Source of the DNA: Brachycybe producta
Lineage: Eukaryota > Arthropoda > Diplopoda > Playtdesmida > Andrognathidae
Assembly: GCA_036925085.1 (NCBI GenBank)
Contig: JAUPFP010000038.1
Coordinates: forward strand, 1,735,671-1,799,670
Direction: 5' to 3'
DNA: 64,000 nt
Shown here: positions 21,008-61,841 of the stretch, piece after piece
Layout of the letters: the number at the start of each line of letters is the position of its first letter
How positions within the stretch are numbered: the stretch's first letter is position 1
Notes under the pieces: generated by a model
What the model saw: the letters and a program-made list of their open reading frames with translations, nothing else
Database searches by the model: none
What the model was told of the DNA's origin: nothing
Translations under genes and position numbers: made by a program

Positions 21008-21312
21008 GTTCATTTCCTTTTCTTACTGTCTATGGGTGTCTGTCTCTTGCAAAGTATCAAACAAGAAAAAAATACAGTAACATGAAGTGACGTTCTACCA
21101 TCCCAAAGGGGATTTGATCATAGATCATAACGCTTGTGGTGTCAGACCAAAAAATTCTAGTGAAAAACTAAAATGGCATTTCTTAATTATTTCTAAATGT
21201 AAGATAGTTAAAGCTAGTGCTAAACTGACCAATTTTTACGTGAAACCTTTTACAGTATATTCCTATTCAATGTTGAAAAGTTTAACATTAACTTTAACTT
21301 GCAGATCATTAC

Positions 21313-25036: not shown

Positions 25037-25571
25037 AGTGGTATTCTTAATGGGTGTTTAGAAATTAGCATAGGCGCAGCTTAGCTAGGCAAGAAGTGCT
25101 AAGCTCAGAAGTGGCTCAGCTCACATTTTATATTTTGAAAAATATCTACGTAACGTGCCTTTCTTATACCGTGTACACACATGAGTTAAATGAGTTCAAA
25201 TCAAACGTGTTTAGGTGAATTATACGGAATCCAGTTAAGGACATACGAACCAAACAAAAATTGCTTTTATTATTAATATTTTACACTGAAATACTAAATC
25301 AATATTTTGTCAATAGTTTATATAATTATATTTAAGTATTAACTTCAGATATTAATTTCAGATTATTAACTGAATAAATTCAATTCGACATATTGTTTGT
25401 TTGTCCTTCACAGGGCTCTGTAGAACACATTTATAATTTAAATGCATTTAAATTATCAGGTGTGTATACTTCCTCTTACCCTTTGCTCACAGCCCATTAC
25501 GAATATAAAAGTTAATGAGTTTAAAACAAACTAGGCCAATGTCACAGTTAGCAATCATTAAGAATACGACC
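25037..25571. repeat. Family B element interrupted by a family A element
   Basis: The left terminus is GTGGTATTCTTAATGGGTG (from 25037) and the right terminus AGCAATCATTAAGAATACGA followed by CC (to 25571). The 305-bp family A element at 25166-25470 lies between the two halves. Without it the remainder is about 230 bp, somewhat longer than the other family B copies. Confidence 0.6.
25166..25470. repeat. Family A element (MITE-like), about 305 bp
   Basis: Starts TATACCGTGTACACACATGA and ends TATCAGGTGTGTATA. It shares near-identical interior blocks with 43652-43969 and 54104-54411, for example TTAGGTGAATTATACGGAAT, ATCAATATTTTGTCAATAGT and CAGGGCTCTGTAGAACACAT. No coding capacity. Confidence 0.85.
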
Positions 25572-28709: not shown

Positions 28710-29050
28710 AAAGTACACTTAAGCTAAATACATTCAAGTTAAATGTGTTTCGCTGAATTATACTGAGTTCAGTTAAGAACATGAACAAGATGAAATCGAC
28801 TTTTTTACTGTCGAAAAAGCGCCTGCCGATCCCGGTCGGTTAGGACCCGGCATGGGGATGGGCAACCCCGGGCCCACGTGTGACCTACCGTAGTCAAAAG
28901 TGGTCCGACCATGGTCATAAGTGACTACGGGTGCCATAGGTTGGGCAACGGTAAAAAGAGTTACGCCTCAGGGGAGTAAACCCCCGACAAAATTATGACT
29001 TTATTACTTAATATCTGAAATATTAAAGCATTTTGAAAGCATTTTTAAGA
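28710..29050. repeat. Diverged family A element split by a GC-rich insert
   Basis: The left half (28710-28803) has AATACATTCAAGTTAAATGT and GAGTTCAGTTAAGAACATGA, matching the family A left half. The right half resumes at 28997 with TTATTACTTAATATCTGAA, which matches the copy at 61507-61841 closely. The right end is lost in A+T-rich DNA; its boundary is approximate. Confidence 0.6.
28804..28996. mobile_element. GC-rich 193-bp insertion, SINE-like or LINE 5' fragment
   Basis: The block is far more GC-rich than its surroundings (it contains GCGCCTGCCGATCCCGGTCG and GGGCAACCCCGGGCCCACGT). It interrupts a family A element. A possible 6-bp duplication GACTTT flanks it (28798-28803 and 28997-29002). 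It ends ACAAAATTAT with no clear poly-A. I do not see a convincing pair of RNA polymerase III A and B boxes, so SINE status is unproven; a 5'-UTR fragment of a LINE is an alternative. Confidence 0.55.
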
Positions 29051-43651: not shown

Positions 43652-43969
43652 CCCTAATACCTTGTACACACACATGAGTTAAATTAATTCAAATTAAATG
43701 TGTTTAGGTGAATTAGACGGAATCCAGTTAAGGACATGAACCCAAATAAAAATTGATTTTATCATTAATATTTTAAATTGAAATACTAAATCAATATTTT
43801 GTCAATAGTTTATCTAATTATATATTTAAGTATTAACTCAATATTTTCAGATTATTAACTGAATAAATTGAATTTGACATATTGCTTGTTTGTCCTTCAC
43901 AGGGCTCTGTAGAACACGTTTATTATTTAAATGCATTTAAATTATCAGGTGTGTACTAGATATTAGGGG
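43652..43969. repeat. Family A element (MITE-like)
   Basis: Starts CCCTAATACCTTGTACACAC and ends GTGTGTACTAGATATTAGGG, giving inverted termini in which CCCTAATA is also inverted. Interior blocks match 25166-25470 and 54104-54411 nearly base for base (for example CACAGGGCTCTGTAGAACAC). Confidence 0.87.
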
Positions 43970-46600: not shown

Positions 46601-49577
<2,977 letters not shown>

Positions 49578-49979
49578 CCCCAAAAATTGGTTATAACTCG
49601 AGTTATAGTCAATGGATTCACCTGAAATTTTCAGCATAAAGAGATCATCTTATATTCTAAACTTTCTGCTAGGCAGAAATTTTTTTCTTTAAAAGGTAAA
49701 AATTAAAAAAATTAAAAACTGGAAAATGACCGTTTCATAATTATAGACGCACTAATGAACTTTTCACTTTTATTAATTATTGTGACAAAATAATATGCTG
49801 AATCATTAAAAATAGTAAGGTATACGACTGTTATGATGTTTCAAAACTTAAAACATTCTTTTTTACAGAATTAAACAATATTTATAAGCAAATTTACCGA
49901 AATTCTACTGAAAAGGAGCTAAAATGGCAATTTTCAGCTTTGATATTGTATTATCATGATGGCAATCTGCTTAATCATC

Positions 49980-50125
49980 ATGTACAATGATGTCCCAAAC
50001 GTTTTCATCAGGATTTAAGTCCGGGAGACACGCCGGCCATTCGAGAGTGGTGATATTTTGGTTCCGTAACCATTCCTTCGTTAGGTTATTGGAGGAAACT
50101 GGGCCATTTTCTTGCTGGAATACTA
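49980..50125 (-). pseudogene. Tc1-type transposase relic, catalytic C-terminal part (left arm)
   Basis: The minus-strand frame reads VFQQENGPVSSNNLTKEWLR followed by a block containing WPACLPDLNPDENVWDII. These correspond to the QQDNAP...WPxxSPDLNPIENVW region of Tc1 transposases (DDE/D catalytic core). The second catalytic Asp of the family motif is Glu here (QQENGP). The third acidic residue (the E of PDENVW) is kept. The frame is short and no start or DNA-binding domain is continuous with it, so the copy is dead. Confidence 0.85.
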
Positions 50126-50552
50126 AGCAAATGCTATAGAAGCGATGTAATATGGCAGTACATACCCTCGTAACATTGTCTGATAATCACTGATATTTAT
50201 TTGGGTTGAAATAAATGCTAAGCTCGCGTTTCAAAAACTAAGCTGCTCGTTTGAAAGGCACTAAATGTTCCCCATAATATTAGGCTCCCCCACTGCCGAA
50301 ATTTTGTTTAGGAAAATATTGTGCTTTTCTCGTAACATCCTTCCAATATGAAGAAAGAAAAAAAAAACCGTCAGAATCATCGAGATTGAATTTTTTCACG
50401 CACTCAGATATGTCGGTGGTGGTGGCCTAACAATATGCGAAGTATTTAGCGCATTTGAACCAACCAAAACATAATGTTTATTATCAGACAATATTATGAT
50501 AGTGTTTACTGACCTGCCAAAGTCGATTTCCTAGCGTTAGCTTAGCATTCGA

Positions 50553-50690
50553 GCAAGAAAATGCACCAGTTCGCTCCAGTAATCTAAGGAATCAATGGTT
50601 ACGAAACCAGAATATCACCACTCTCGAATGGCCAGGGTGTCCCCGGACTTAAATCTTACAGAGAACTTTCGGGACAACATCATACAATAA
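50553..50690 (+). pseudogene. Tc1-type transposase relic, catalytic C-terminal part (right arm)
   Basis: The plus-strand frame reads QENAPVRSSNLRNQWLRNQ and then ITTLEWPGCP. A frameshift falls inside the PDLNP motif. It covers the same part of the transposase as 49980-50125 in the opposite orientation. The two differ at several residues (for example NLTKEWLR against NLRNQWLR), so they are not fresh duplicates of each other. The family's second catalytic Asp is Glu here too. Confidence 0.82.
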
Positions 50691-51130
50691 TGATTTACAG
50701 ATTGCTATGATTATACTACAATAGCGGAGTTGAAAAGTCCCATTTTAGCTGTTTCGGGGTAGAATTTCTGCAAATTTGCTTATAAATATTGTTTAATTCT
50801 GTAAAAAAGAATGTTTTAAGTTTTGAAACATCATAACAGTTGTATACCTTACTATTTTTAATGATTCAGCATGTTATTTTGTCACAATAATTAATAAAAG
50901 TGAAAAGTTCATTAGTGCGTCTATAATTATGAAACGGTCATTTTCCAGTTTTTAATTTTTTTAATTTTACCTTTTAAAGAAAAAAATTTCTGCCTAGCAG
51001 AAAGTTTAGAATATAAGATGATCTCTTTATGCTGAAAATTTCAGGTGAATCCATTGACTATAACTCGAGTTATAACCAATTTTTGGGGTGCGTCTATATA
51101 TATGAAACGCACTGTATATTATTATATATA

Positions 51131-54103: not shown

Positions 54104-54411
54104 CTAATACCTTGTACACACATGAGTTAAATGAATTCAAATTAAATGTGTTTAGGTGAATTATACGGAATCCAGTTAAGGACATCAACCAAATAAAAAT
54201 TCATTTTATTATTAATATTTTAAATTGAAATACTAAATCAATATTTTGTCAATAGTTTCTATAATTATATTTAAGAATTAACTCAATATTTTCAGATTAT
54301 TAACTGAATAAATTGAATTTGATATATTGTTTGTTTGCCCTTCACGGGGCTCTGTAGAACACATTTACTATTTAAGTGCATTTAAATTATCTGGTGTGTA
54401 CTAGGTACTAG
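54104..54411. repeat. Family A element (MITE-like)
   Basis: Starts CTAATACCTTGTACACACAT and ends TGTGTACTAGGTACTA. The interior matches the other family A copies nearly base for base. It abuts a family B element at 54412. Confidence 0.87.
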
Positions 54412-56230: not shown

Positions 56231-58090
56231 AATTTCAATTTCTCCTTAGTGTTGGATTCGAAAATCAGTGTTTCTTTTAAACAGTTTATCTTACGTTTAT
56301 AAGACAGAGACTGCGAGTTACAATCGCTGTTCAGTGTCATATCGGTGCAGGAAGTACACTGAAAAAACTGTGATCTTTTATAAGTTACTGAGTAATTATA
56401 TATGTGAACTGAAAGTTCAATTTGCATTGTGGGCCGTACTTCTTTGACTTTAATAAAGTCGCAACTTAAAGAAAAATACTAATAAAATGTCAATATTAGT
56501 TTTTTTACTTTCAAGTTAATTTAACTTTCAAATACAAGCTTATTTTAAAAATTACATCATGAAATTCCAGTTTTTAATAAACTTCACTTAAAAAATGTCT
56601 GTTCGACTGAAAAGTCTATTAGAATACAAATACAAGAAACAAACTTCGTACTTGAACTCTGAGCAGGGTTCCACAACATGTTTAGAGCTTTAGTACCCTC
56701 ATTAAGAGGATTCAAGTTTAAAAGTTCCAAAGATTTAAAGTTGTATTCTTGAATTTGGGTTTAACCATCCTCACTGGTGACTGAATGGTGTAAACAGTAA
56801 ACAAAACACAGTACAAGTTCATCAGTTGATTCAAAGTCAATATTTAATCCTTAATTTCGGGGTTCTTATATTCGATTTTCACTAATGCATTAATCCTCAA
56901 AGTGTATATCTTAACCTAATTACACACAACACTAACACTACTTGTAATAAAGTGTAGTAAGTGACAACCAACCACCATCTAGTGTATATACAGCATGCAT
57001 GTAACTTTAGGGTATAAACGCAACAACCAACCCACCCCATCATTTGTACAAGAAGCGTTTAATTAAATTAAGCCCCTGTAGGTATGCAATCACTGCAAAC
57101 AGGGTCAAAATCCTCTCTTTTTTTCACCAGAAAAAAAAACCCTCCGAAATTTCCACTAGAACAGACAAAATCTTTGAAGATTTTTTTTTTCCGCTTACTG
57201 GTTTTACAACGTCCATCTAATTTTTCAGTGAATCAATTCTCACACTTTCGCCTCTCTTCAGAAACAACCAAGCTCAAACATATATATTTTTTTCTACTTC
57301 AGCTTTTTTAAGTCCAGTTTTACTCGCCACTTCCTTTGCAAGTTGCCATCAATTCTTTGAAAAACAAACGAATGAATGACGGAGAAAAGTTTGAAGAAAG
57401 ATGGTTCGCCATTAAGTCTAGCATTTCCTTTTATTTTTGACACAAGGGATTCAAAATAGCCTCTCAAAACAACAACAAATATTGGATGAACACAAGTAAA
57501 AAAAAAAGTATTGGTAAAAATTTGATAAAATGGGTAAAAAAAATGTACCACGAAAGAAAGATATGACCATATTCTAAAAAACATTGCTCAAGACAAGAGT
57601 TCGAAAATCAGTTATGTTAAACCATCTCAAATAAAGCTAAACTTAACAGTCGATATACTGGTACTTACACTATTAGTTTTATATTGAGTCATGATTTAAG
57701 CTTAACTTTATTTTAAGCAGTGTTTTTGAATACGAGGGTAAGTTTTTCTTTTTTGTACTTAAGAAAATATTTAAAGGAAGAAAAAAAAAACTTTCTCGAT
57801 AAATAAAACAGTTTTTACCGTCATTGAACACACTCAAATCAATCACACTGATTTATTTCAACTTCCTGAAGACGAAGAGGAAGAAGAAAAAATCTTAAAT
57901 CTTAAATCATTAACTCTCTCTCATGACATTAGTCTTCAAAAACAAATAAATCATCATTCCTAACTTGGAAACTTTTTAGCAAAATTTTTTTTTAGAAAAA
58001 AAACCCGTCAATAATAAGATAAATTTACATCTTAATAAATACTGACGTTTCTTATTTTTTCTCTCCCCCTTTATAAAAACAACAATTGTT
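56231..58090. other. A+T-rich non-coding DNA
   Basis: No gene seen. A family C-like right terminus (TTAAGCAGTGTTTTTGAATA) lies at about 57714-57733 without a clear left partner. Confidence 0.5.
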
Positions 58091-58573
58091 TTCTAGTGCA
58101 GCAGTCGCCAACCGGTGGTCCGCGAGAAATTCTTGGTGGTCTGCAGAAAAATCTGGACAATATTTTTTATTTTTTCAATTTCAATTCAATTTTCAATTTT
58201 TTATATTCTGATTGACAATTTTCACCTTTATGTTGCACTGAATTTACGAAATGTACTAGAATCTAGTACAGTTCTCGTAAAATATGGCACGCGAGAGCTA
58301 CATTTCGTTCAGTTTCCCCCACCACACGCTTCTCCCCTAATACCTAGTACACACCTGATAATTTAAATGCATTTAAATAATAAACGTGTTCTACAGAGCC
58401 CTGCGAAGGGCAAACAAACAATATGTCGAATTCAATTTATTCAGTTAATAATCTGAAAATATTGACTTAATACTTATATAAATATACTAGCATTACTACC
58501 CGGCTTCGCTCGGGTAAAGTAAACAATTAAAAGAAATAACTTTTATTGACTTTTATCTTCACTGTTAAGAAAT

Positions 58574-59107
58574 TTAAGGGGGATGAACATGGGTTTGAGG
58601 GGAATGAACCCCCTTAAAAACCATGTTCATCCCCTAAAACCATGTTCATCCCCTTAAACCCATGTTCATCCCCTTAAACCCATGTTCATCCCCTTAAACC
58701 CATGTTCATCTCCCTTAAACTCATGTTCATCTCCCTTAAACTCATGTTCATCTCCCTTAAACCCATGTTCATCCCCCTTAAACCATGTTCATCCCCCTTA
58801 AACCATGTTCATCCCCCTTAAACCCATGTTCATCCCCCTTAAACCCATGTTCATCCCCCTTAAACCCATGTTCATCCCCCTTAAACCCATGTTCATCCCC
58901 CTTAAACCCATGTTCATCCCCCTTAAACCCATGTTCATCTCCCTTAAACCCATGTTCATCCCCCTTAAACCCATGTTCATCCCCCTTAAAACCATGTTCA
59001 TCCCCCATAAAACCATGTTCATCCCCCATAAAACCATGTTCATCCCCCATAAAACCATGTTCATCCCCCATAAAACCATGTTCATCCCCCATAAACCATG
59101 TTCATCC
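58574..59107. repeat. Minisatellite of 20-21 bp unit, about 24 copies
   Basis: The unit is TTCATCCCCCTTAAACCCATG and minor variants (one character over 20 is split here: TTCATCCCCC plus TTAAACCCATG). Direct copies run 58609-59107. A single inverted unit stands at the left edge (58574-58596). Variants come in blocks: 20-bp units first, then a block with CTCCC and ACTCATG, then a block with CCCCCTTAAACCC, then five units with CCCCCATAAAACC. Most units are 21 bp, so all frames stay open on both strands (for example a repeating GDEHGFK heptad). These frames are not genes. Confidence 0.95.
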
Positions 59108-59335
59108 TTTTATTTTTCTCTGTTCATCCCATTAATTAAAATAGTGTTCATCTAATTCTATATGCATTCTGTGTCGGGTTTTAGAGTTACCCCAATGTTC
59201 ATCCTGTTCATTTGTTCATCTTTTGGTATGGAATTCCACAGGGGTGCATTGCCTATGTTAAGGCATCGAAACTATTTTCCCGTTTCAAGTTCCTAATCTT
59301 TTTAAAATAAAACGGCTTGCCTATTAGAGATGGGC

Positions 59336-59403
59336 ATCGATAATATCGATGTTGAACCATCGATAGTGACCTCTTTGATATCACTATCGATGTCAATATC
59401 GAT
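59336..59403. promoter_or_regulatory. Cluster of five ATCGAT motifs inside the Helitron
   Basis: ATCGAT occurs at 59336, 59345, 59359, 59386 and 59398, partly as an inverted pair (CCATCGATAGTGA facing TCACTATCGATGT). ATCGAT is the core of the insect DRE/BEAF-type site TATCGATA, but factor binding is pure inference, and the cluster may just be an imperfect palindrome. Confidence 0.35.
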
Positions 59404-60000
59404 ATTTAGCTTGCGAGGTCCCATCCTCATTGCCTATATATGAAGACGCGCACCACATGTAAAACTCGGGAAGGGAATGACGTAGCGAGCTGAAAATAGT
59501 TGCATTAACTCGGAAATTCCGGAAAGAATAACTTGTGAAAATTTCATGACACCACCCCTCACCGTTCAAAAGCCTATGATGTACAAAGAAATATCAACTT
59601 TGTTTTATATATAAGATAAACTATTGACAAATTAAAGTCAATTTTTATTTTGTTCATGTCCTTATCTGGATTCCGTATAATTCACCTAGACACATTTAAT
59701 TTCAATTCATTTAACTCATGTGTGTACAGGTACAAGGTGTCAAAGCTTCAATTATTTTGAAATAATTAAACTACCTTTAATAATTTTGTTACAATTAAAC
59801 AACCTTTAAAGAGTTTATATTAATAAAAGAGAAGTTCTCTTATCATTATTTGATCTCTTTACAAAAAATTCATATTAGTGGTCCGCGGGATTTAAAATTT
59901 TGAATTTAGTGGTCATTGAGGTCCGAAAGGTTGGCAACCGTTGTTCTAGTGGATACTTTCAGGACAAAAGAATATGTATTTTAAGAAGAAAAACATGTAT

Positions 60001-60422
60001 GGCCGCATTCTATAAGGTTACTTACTTCTTAAAATATGACAAGGAAAAAAAATTCTCTATACTGAATCAGGCTATGGCAGAGATTCCCAAAGGGTGTGCT
60101 GTGAGTTTTGCTAGATGTACTGTTATATTGACTGTGTTAATTAATATACATTAATTTAATATTTTCAAATCAATTTTAACTTTATACAAAAGTTTCCTAT
60201 TACATGTACATGTACGTGCACATACTGTAAACCAGTGGTTTTTCTGTGGCACACTTAGCAACTAGTGTGTCGAGAGTTTTGCAAGGTGTGCTGCAATTTC
60301 TTTAGGCACAATAACCGTGCTATGAGTTCATAAAAATTGGGAACAACTTGTTCATGAAAAGGCTTAAAGTTTAACAGTGTTTAAGCTTAGCTTTGTGTTA
60401 AGTAAAGTTTTAGAATACGGCC
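60001..60422. repeat. Family C element containing two hAT-like terminal relics
   Basis: Left terminus GGCCGCATTCTATAAGGTTA and right terminus TTAAGTAAAGTTTTAGAATA then CGGCC are inverted. Inside, two related blocks in the same orientation resemble hAT termini: CAGAGATTCCCAAAGGGTGT with GTGAGTTTTGCTAGATGT at 60078-60118, and CAGTGGTTTTTCTGTGGC with GAGAGTTTTGCAAGGTGT at 60233-60289. No coding capacity; the 84-codon frame at 59900-60154 crosses element boundaries and is incidental. Confidence 0.55.
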
Positions 60423-61506
60423 GCGTCAGAATAAATTCTTATTCGACAAATAATAAAACCGCACACGCATTACATTGATGTTTTTCGATAGTGACCAAAA
60501 AAAAAATAAAGAATGTACTTTTTCTAAGCAAAACAAAAAACATTTCACATGAAAGCGTCAAAAAGATATTACAACAGAAAAAGAGAGAGAAAAATAGAAA
60601 CTTTGAGAAAAAAAAAAGTTCTAAAATATCTCTTTTTTTTATAAACTCTGTCGAGAAAAGAAAAGTAGAAAAAAAAACACACAGAGAAAATAAAAAAAGT
60701 CCATTTGACTGGTCAAGTTAAGTCCATCAAATTTATATATCTGTCTTACATTTTGAGAGGTAATAGTTCGAAGGTGATGGCAGTTTTTATCCATTGATAC
60801 ACTTGACAGACGACGACAACAACAACAACATAAAAGCAAGCAAGAAGAAAAAAAATGGACATCAAAATGGACTATTGAATGTCTTAAACATCACCTCAAA
60901 GACTCTTTGAACAGTTTAAAGTAAGACTTGAGTCTCAAGAAGAAGAAGAAAAAAGATAACCTTTTGTTGAAACTACATAAAAATGTCAACATCAACAAAT
61001 AAGAATTCAGAGACAGAAAAATGTCAAAAAAAATATCTTAAACGAAAGAGAGAAAAAAATGCTCACTAGAATACACGATAAAAACTTTAAAATTGAAATT
61101 ATCGTGAATTGCTTACTTTAAAGAATTTACTAAGTTTAAACTTACATTAATTTTTAATGTAAAAGAATCAACTTTACCCTCGTTTTCTTTTAGGGTGCGT
61201 TAATGTCAGTTAAACATTAAGTTAAACAGTTAAACATAAGAATATTATATGCTAAGAAAATCTTAAAAAATAAAACATTTTACAGCATTTCAATAGATTG
61301 AAATCATCCTTTTTAAAACTGCCATAAAAAAGTTTATTTTGAAAAATTAACATAAAAAACTTTTAGTAATTTTCATCAGCTATTCTAGTTTTTTTTTTTT
61401 TAAACAAGTTGAATTTTCATGTATTCTTCTGAAAAAAAAATGTTGTTCAAGCTCATTAAATTGTCTAAGAACCAGCTGGAGAGAAGAAATTCAACTATCT
61501 ATCCAC
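60423..61506. other. A+T-rich non-coding DNA
   Basis: No gene seen. A degenerate family E-like motif (AAAAAGTTTATTTTGAAAAA) lies near 61327-61346. Confidence 0.5.
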
Positions 61507-61841
61507 CTTATTACCTAGTCTACACTTGAGTTTAATTCATTCAAGTTAATTGAGCTTTAGTTAAATTGAAACGAAGTCCAGTAAAGAACAGAAATAAGAT
61601 AAACTTGACGTTATTACTTAATATCTGAACAAACTGAATTACTAAATCAATATTTTGTTACACAAACCCAATTATATTGAAATACAAATTTAATTTATTT
61701 AAATATTAACTCAATTTATAGAGCTAATTAAATGAATTAATTGCATTCGAAATATTGTTTGTTTGTCCTTAACACGGCTCTGTAGAACATGTTTAACATT
61801 TTAATTCGTTTAACGTTTTAAGTATATAGATAAGTAAGTAC
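61507..61841. repeat. Diverged family A element
   Basis: Starts CTTATTACCTAGTCTACACT and shares CACGGCTCTGTAGAACATGT and ACTAAATCAATATTTTGTTA with the other copies. It is clearly more diverged than those at 25, 43.6 and 54.1 kb and marks an older or different subfamily, closer to 28710-29050. Confidence 0.7.

Follow-up and report, generated by a model that had tools for sequence, protein, structure and literature searches.

A nest of mobile elements lies at 58091-59951 of the 64-kb stretch of DNA analysed here (hereafter the window), in which a minisatellite is found within a Helitron, the Helitron within a miniature element that we call family A, and family A within a hAT MITE. It raises the question of how many events such a structure records and whether their order can be taken from the nesting. 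The initial annotation had named the same four levels and read them as four successive events. All four levels are present with the boundaries that it gave, and three of the proposed events, the transpositions, stand, whereas the minisatellite turned out to be a trait of the Helitron subfamily and not an event of its own. The nested insertion is real and cleanly readable, and it involves three non-autonomous DNA transposons, all of them from ordinary families that are present in many copies in the genome. It thus illustrates cleanly how far nested insertion serves as a timeline: the three layers very probably represent successive transpositions, in the order hAT, family A and Helitron, and the innermost repeat is inherited cargo that should not be counted.

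Boundaries of the nested elements

The outer layer is a hAT MITE of ~470 bp with short, inverted ends that begin CAG... and are imperfect in the window copy. Alignment with copies lacking family A delimits a left arm at 58099-58340 (plus strand), whose last three bases (58338-58340) are the TAA targeted by family A, and a right arm at 59741-59943 (plus strand; start approximate). The arms are enclosed by the 8-bp sequence TTCTAGTG at 58091-58098 and 59944-59951, where it abuts the hAT-type ends CAGCAGTCGCCAACC... and ...GGTTGGCAACCGTTG; its one further occurrence in the window, at 21155, is unrelated. The perfect 8-bp duplication previously described for this shell is therefore borne out at 8 of 8 positions. 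Among 32 other hAT copies with both ends located, the flanks agreed at 8/8 positions in 16, at 7/8 in 9, at 6/8 in 3 and at fewer in 4, so that 25 of the 32 showed 7/8 or 8/8. This agreement across copies indicates that such a duplication characterizes the hAT family. The target consensus is nTCTAGAG, with T at position 4 in 27/29 copies and A at position 5 in 29/29, excluding L052, L055 and L062, whose ends were misplaced (L062 was also left out of the hAT alignments). Locus L059 is the window itself, and no right end was obtained for L066. L053 and L065 have common flanks and are probably one insertion that was duplicated.

The middle layer, family A, is split into a left half (TACCTAGTACACACC...) at 58341-58486 and a right half at ~59617-59740 (both plus strand; end of the right half approximate). 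Over the 141 positions compared (58341-58480), the left half is 90.8% identical to a reference A copy taken from L012. The two matching halves that the initial annotation had reported inside the hAT element were thus recovered. In the right half the outer end is scrambled and ~36 bp are missing near the start relative to most copies, and owing to the scrambled end the target site duplication (TSD) of this copy is visible on the left side only. The family was characterized from 24 non-composite single-piece copies, which are 249-316 bp long and have inverted ends of the form TACCT(A/T)GTACACAC...GTGTGTACAAGGTA. A TWA flank was found on the left in 22/24 and on the right in 20/24, and was identical on both sides in 14/24; the base before the target was C in 13/24 and the base after it G in 14/24. 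Judged from its ends and target, family A looks like a PIF/Harbinger-like MITE (PHIS). Five further full or partial copies are located in the window (25166-25451, 28722-28807, 43657-43962, 54107-54407 and 61512-61814), so the family is dense there.

The inner layer is a non-autonomous Helitron at 58487-59616 on the minus strand. It measures exactly 1130 bp and runs from TC to CTAG between a flanking A and T, as the A|TC...CTAG|T ends of the initial annotation had it, and the same ends are repeated in other copies. A 3' hairpin, ACCCGAGCGAAGCCGGGT, is visible in the sequence upstream of CTAG (58498-58515, minus strand); with RNA parameters the terminal 36 nt have a folding energy of -11.5 kcal/mol, and the hairpin sequence is similar in other copies. 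To describe the family, 23 Helitron loci were read, namely 15 loci chosen from 39 other scored places of a 5' query free of the 21-bp array, L002-L008 and the window. The Helitrons sit between A and T and show no target duplication: the 5' flank is A in 18/19 readable cases and the 3' flank T in 20/21, window included. Two types of 3' end were distinguished, and the window copy belongs to type 2. The 5' half of the window Helitron contains an ATCGAT-rich palindrome of 65 nt (59342-59406, minus strand; opposite-strand self-match at 1795012-1795076 in contig numbering), which folds at -31.5 kcal/mol and has similar matches in other copies. Some Helitron copies match only to about the edge of this palindrome, which may mark a variable module.

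The initial annotation would have been undermined if family A normally held the 1130-bp block, which is not what the fetched loci show. These loci, which come from similarity searches rather than random sampling, contain 64 family A matches with a length of 60 nt or more (window locus counted once); 14 of these are partial, and 50 consist of one near-full-length piece. Only two collinear split pairs were observed, in the window (gap 1137) and in L075 (G000:C5:1987110-1988860; gap 597). In L075, family A is split by a type-1 Helitron without the 21-bp array, which inserted A|T at GAGTTAA|TACTTAAAT, ~15 bp from the point corresponding to that of the window and in the opposite orientation relative to A. 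Differing in Helitron type, point and orientation, L075 represents a separate Helitron-in-A event; it was fetched as a Helitron locus, so its presence carries no frequency for such events.

It is practically negligible as a possibility that the nest is an assembly artefact joining unrelated repeats, since at every junction an element ends canonically and shows the target signature proper to it, and since the hAT flanks are identical at all 8 bp across 1.9 kb. Rfam gave 0 matches in the 64-kb window. Other elements were seen in the surroundings. A large inverted repeat at 49563-51103, whose arms measure 292 nt (91%) and 155 nt (95%), is probably another element. Another short repeat family flanks the nest (57676-57738 and 60361-60423) and also occurs at 1468-1530, and visual inspection suggests one more element at 60000-60425, which contains hAT-like motifs.

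The 21-bp array as part of the Helitron

The minisatellite occupies 58609-59107 (minus strand) and comprises 24.1 copies of a 21-bp unit (period 21, 96% matches). Near the Helitron 3' end, inverted units of the minisatellite form an inverted repeat at 58573-58609 (minus strand), which was absent from the initial annotation and is common to other copies. The array was present in 12/12 type-2 Helitron copies including the window, 8 of which (window, L002-L008) were the query itself or were found with an array-containing query. Among the 15 loci obtained with the array-free query it was present in 4/4 of type 2 and in 2/9 of type 1, two loci being unclassified. The inverted unit lies 116-119 bp from the Helitron 3' end in 7/12 type-2 copies, window included, and was not detected in the other five.

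As both the array and the position of the inverted unit recur across type-2 copies, the array is a trait of the Helitron subfamily and arrived inside the Helitron. The minisatellite had been counted as a fourth dated event, and growth in place after the Helitron landed would have made it one. Array length does vary among Helitron loci, with 8 to 62 units counted, and some change after insertion is therefore likely. Growth in place at this locus is nevertheless highly improbable in the face of an array in every type-2 copy examined, including the four found without an array query, and of an inverted unit equally far from the 3' end in seven of the twelve. The 21-bp repeat also occurs elsewhere as arrays of several kb (tiled matches at G000:C19:2120638-2127051, C17:2410628-2413947 and C1:6594918-6597781), which suggests that this Helitron subfamily seeds satellite-like arrays.

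Order of insertion and the hAT site of family A

The initial annotation took the order hAT, family A, Helitron directly from the nesting. The order itself is supported by empty sites, divergences and clade tests; nesting alone is insufficient proof, because a hAT element already carrying A could land as one unit. As to empty sites, comparison with other copies in the genome recovered each reconstructed state: hAT without A, hAT with A and without Helitron, and A without Helitron. With a two-arm hAT query lacking A, 39 of 40 scored places continued through the A site without a break, and the remaining place was the window; such a query ranks unbroken copies higher, so the result demonstrates that empty copies exist and does not imply their frequency. 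An empty-site pattern gave 261 matches in the genome compared with 2 for a reversed control, both being counts of pattern matches rather than of individually checked copies. Perfect excision is described as usual for PIF/Harbinger elements (PMC2836001), and an empty hAT copy therefore need not be ancestral.

Divergence from the family consensus, which had been proposed as a way to date the layers, falls inward. It is 0.085 ± 0.014 for the hAT arms (34/398 sites), 0.051 ± 0.014 for family A (13/254) and 0.039 ± 0.010 for the 5' part of the Helitron (14/360), with 0.0125 for its 3' part (1/80); values are uncorrected, exclude CpG sites and refer to consensus rows that are top-scoring matches rather than a random sample. 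The gaps amount to ~2.7 standard errors between hAT and Helitron, ~1.7 between hAT and A and <1 between A and Helitron, and only the first of them is fairly clear.

Family A occupies one and the same CTAAG position, always in one orientation, in at least six hAT copies, namely the window, L009, L010, L012, L014 and L015. The hAT site is CCCCTAAGC, and CTWAG is present in 21/27 A-free copies, in 20 of these once only. L009, L010, L012 and L014 have TSDs of their own (8/8 in three, 7/8 in L009), the right arm of L015 is gone, and the Helitron is absent from A in all five. The right hAT arm of L014 contains a different insert of ~720 bp with inverted ends CTAGTGGGGTAACCCGTCA...TGACGGGTTACCCCACTAG, and similar ends are also found in L095, around 5945 and 6493. 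A search for more filled copies yielded 77 matches to a left-junction pattern and 40 to a right-junction pattern. From the ten left matches with 2 mismatches six were fetched, a seventh being the A copy at window 43657; on the right, all three matches with 2 mismatches and one with 3 were fetched, as was C1:6605600. None of the 11 fetched junction matches had a hAT arm, one of them showing only a chance-like match of 23 nt. As only part of the junction matches was inspected, six filled copies is a lower bound, corresponding to at least 6 of roughly 267 hAT copies (261 empty-site pattern matches plus the 6 filled).

These copies could mean that a hAT element already carrying A spread to six places, so that the nest would record two insertions only. 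Movement of such a composite as a unit looked likely once four more filled copies with their own TSDs had appeared, and it then lost support from two trees, a variant table, a count of A subtypes and clade tests. In its favour, A sits at one site and in one orientation at all six loci, which for independent hits would require a site preference. L012 and L014 agree in their A subtype, and four hAT variants that occur in none of the 27 A-free copies are each common to two filled copies. The variants fall, however, into four different pairings, with none in three or more filled copies, and the subtype of L012 and L014, which has 384 genome-wide pattern matches (<=3 mismatches to its left end), differs at that end from the A copy of the window. 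A single clade was rejected both for the six A copies (AU p 0.0093) and for the five two-armed hAT copies (AU p 0.0168; L015, with one arm, excluded), although monophyly in such tests could be lost through perfect excision or gene conversion. A clade uniting the A copies of the window, L009, L010 and L015 was not rejected (p 0.137), as the composite would allow, and neither was one of L012 and L014 (p 0.506); with neither subgroup rejected, two to six independent A insertions are compatible with the data. The trees are poorly resolved (inner branches open in 15/26, 20/29 and 23/29). Identity of the hAT arms among filled copies is 0.847-0.920, and their means to A-free copies, at 0.881-0.922, are not lower. 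In the window, A is also less diverged than the hAT layer around it, contrary to joint arrival. The same comparison in all six filled copies gives a hAT layer more diverged than A in the window, L009, L010 and L012, and an A layer more diverged than hAT in L014 and L015, with the global A consensus being a poor yardstick for L012 and L014 because of their other subtype. Altogether, we consider the spread of a ready-made composite unlikely.

We therefore return to three successive transpositions as the preferred history. A ~470-bp hAT MITE entered host DNA at TTCTAGTG, with the duplication of 8 bp seen in its flanks. A family A MITE of ~300 bp would then have inserted into the CTAAG site of this copy and duplicated TAA; the insertion itself is evident, and its timing after the hAT landing is suggested by divergence and trees. 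Finally, the 1130-bp Helitron moved in between A and T within family A, with the array and inverted unit aboard, a step established by A copies without the Helitron and by the presence of the array across the subfamily. A window allele without the Helitron would read ...AATATA|TAAACTATT....

The enzymes were presumably supplied by other elements, with a hAT transposase, a DDE_Tnp_4 transposase and a Rep-type Helitron as candidates. The genome contains 149 Dimer_Tnp_hAT, 79 DDE_Tnp_4 and 19 Helitron_like_N matches (lower bounds for large families), and movers of each kind thus exist in it. Of the 19 Helitron_like_N places, 6 were inspected, one over a region of 8 kb and five over 2.5 kb upstream, and at these no convincing family end was found that would point to an autonomous Helitron partner.

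Little about this locus might surprise a specialist except that one hAT site was filled recurrently. We tentatively propose, at somewhat less than even confidence, that the hAT MITE holds a built-in landing site that is used recurrently by the PIF/Harbinger-like MITE. If so, one transposon family would repeatedly dock in another, with at least two A subtypes taking part, and the AT-rich centre of family A would in turn receive Helitrons, as in the window and L075. Repeated filling of the site can also be counted and so offers a natural test for extended target preference in a PIF/Harbinger-like MITE; an extended site preference is already known for PIF/Harbinger elements (PMC2836001).

Comparison with known elements

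Elements of the Buster group of hAT transposons use the target nnnTAnnn. The hAT family of the window likewise has a central TA in its target and may belong to this group. The 8-bp TSD, the CAG...CTG ends and the central TA are the features in which it resembles the hAT MITEs described in PMC3942097.

In the PHIS superfamily, PIF/Harbinger elements target 5'-TWA-3' and NuwaII elements C|TNA|G (PMC4482050). Family A likewise has 3-bp TWA duplications and a tendency to C before and G after the target. Together with the terminal inverted repeat (TIR) TACCTAGTACACAC, the target is the basis of the proposed PHIS likeness.

The Helitron resembles, by description rather than by sequence, the non-autonomous Hel-2 Helitrons of Lepidoptera, for which 5'-TC and 3'-CTAG ends, a 3' stem-loop, A/T flanks and internal tandem arrays are described (PMC4344730). 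Helitrons with internal tandem repeats are thus known (PMC4344730, PMC3833285). Helitron-2 of Drosophila virilis is likewise abundant and contains tandem repeats; it differs in that its unit is 154 bp, as opposed to 21 bp, and in that its repeats are located close to the 5' end of the element, which is 9 kb long (PMC3833285).
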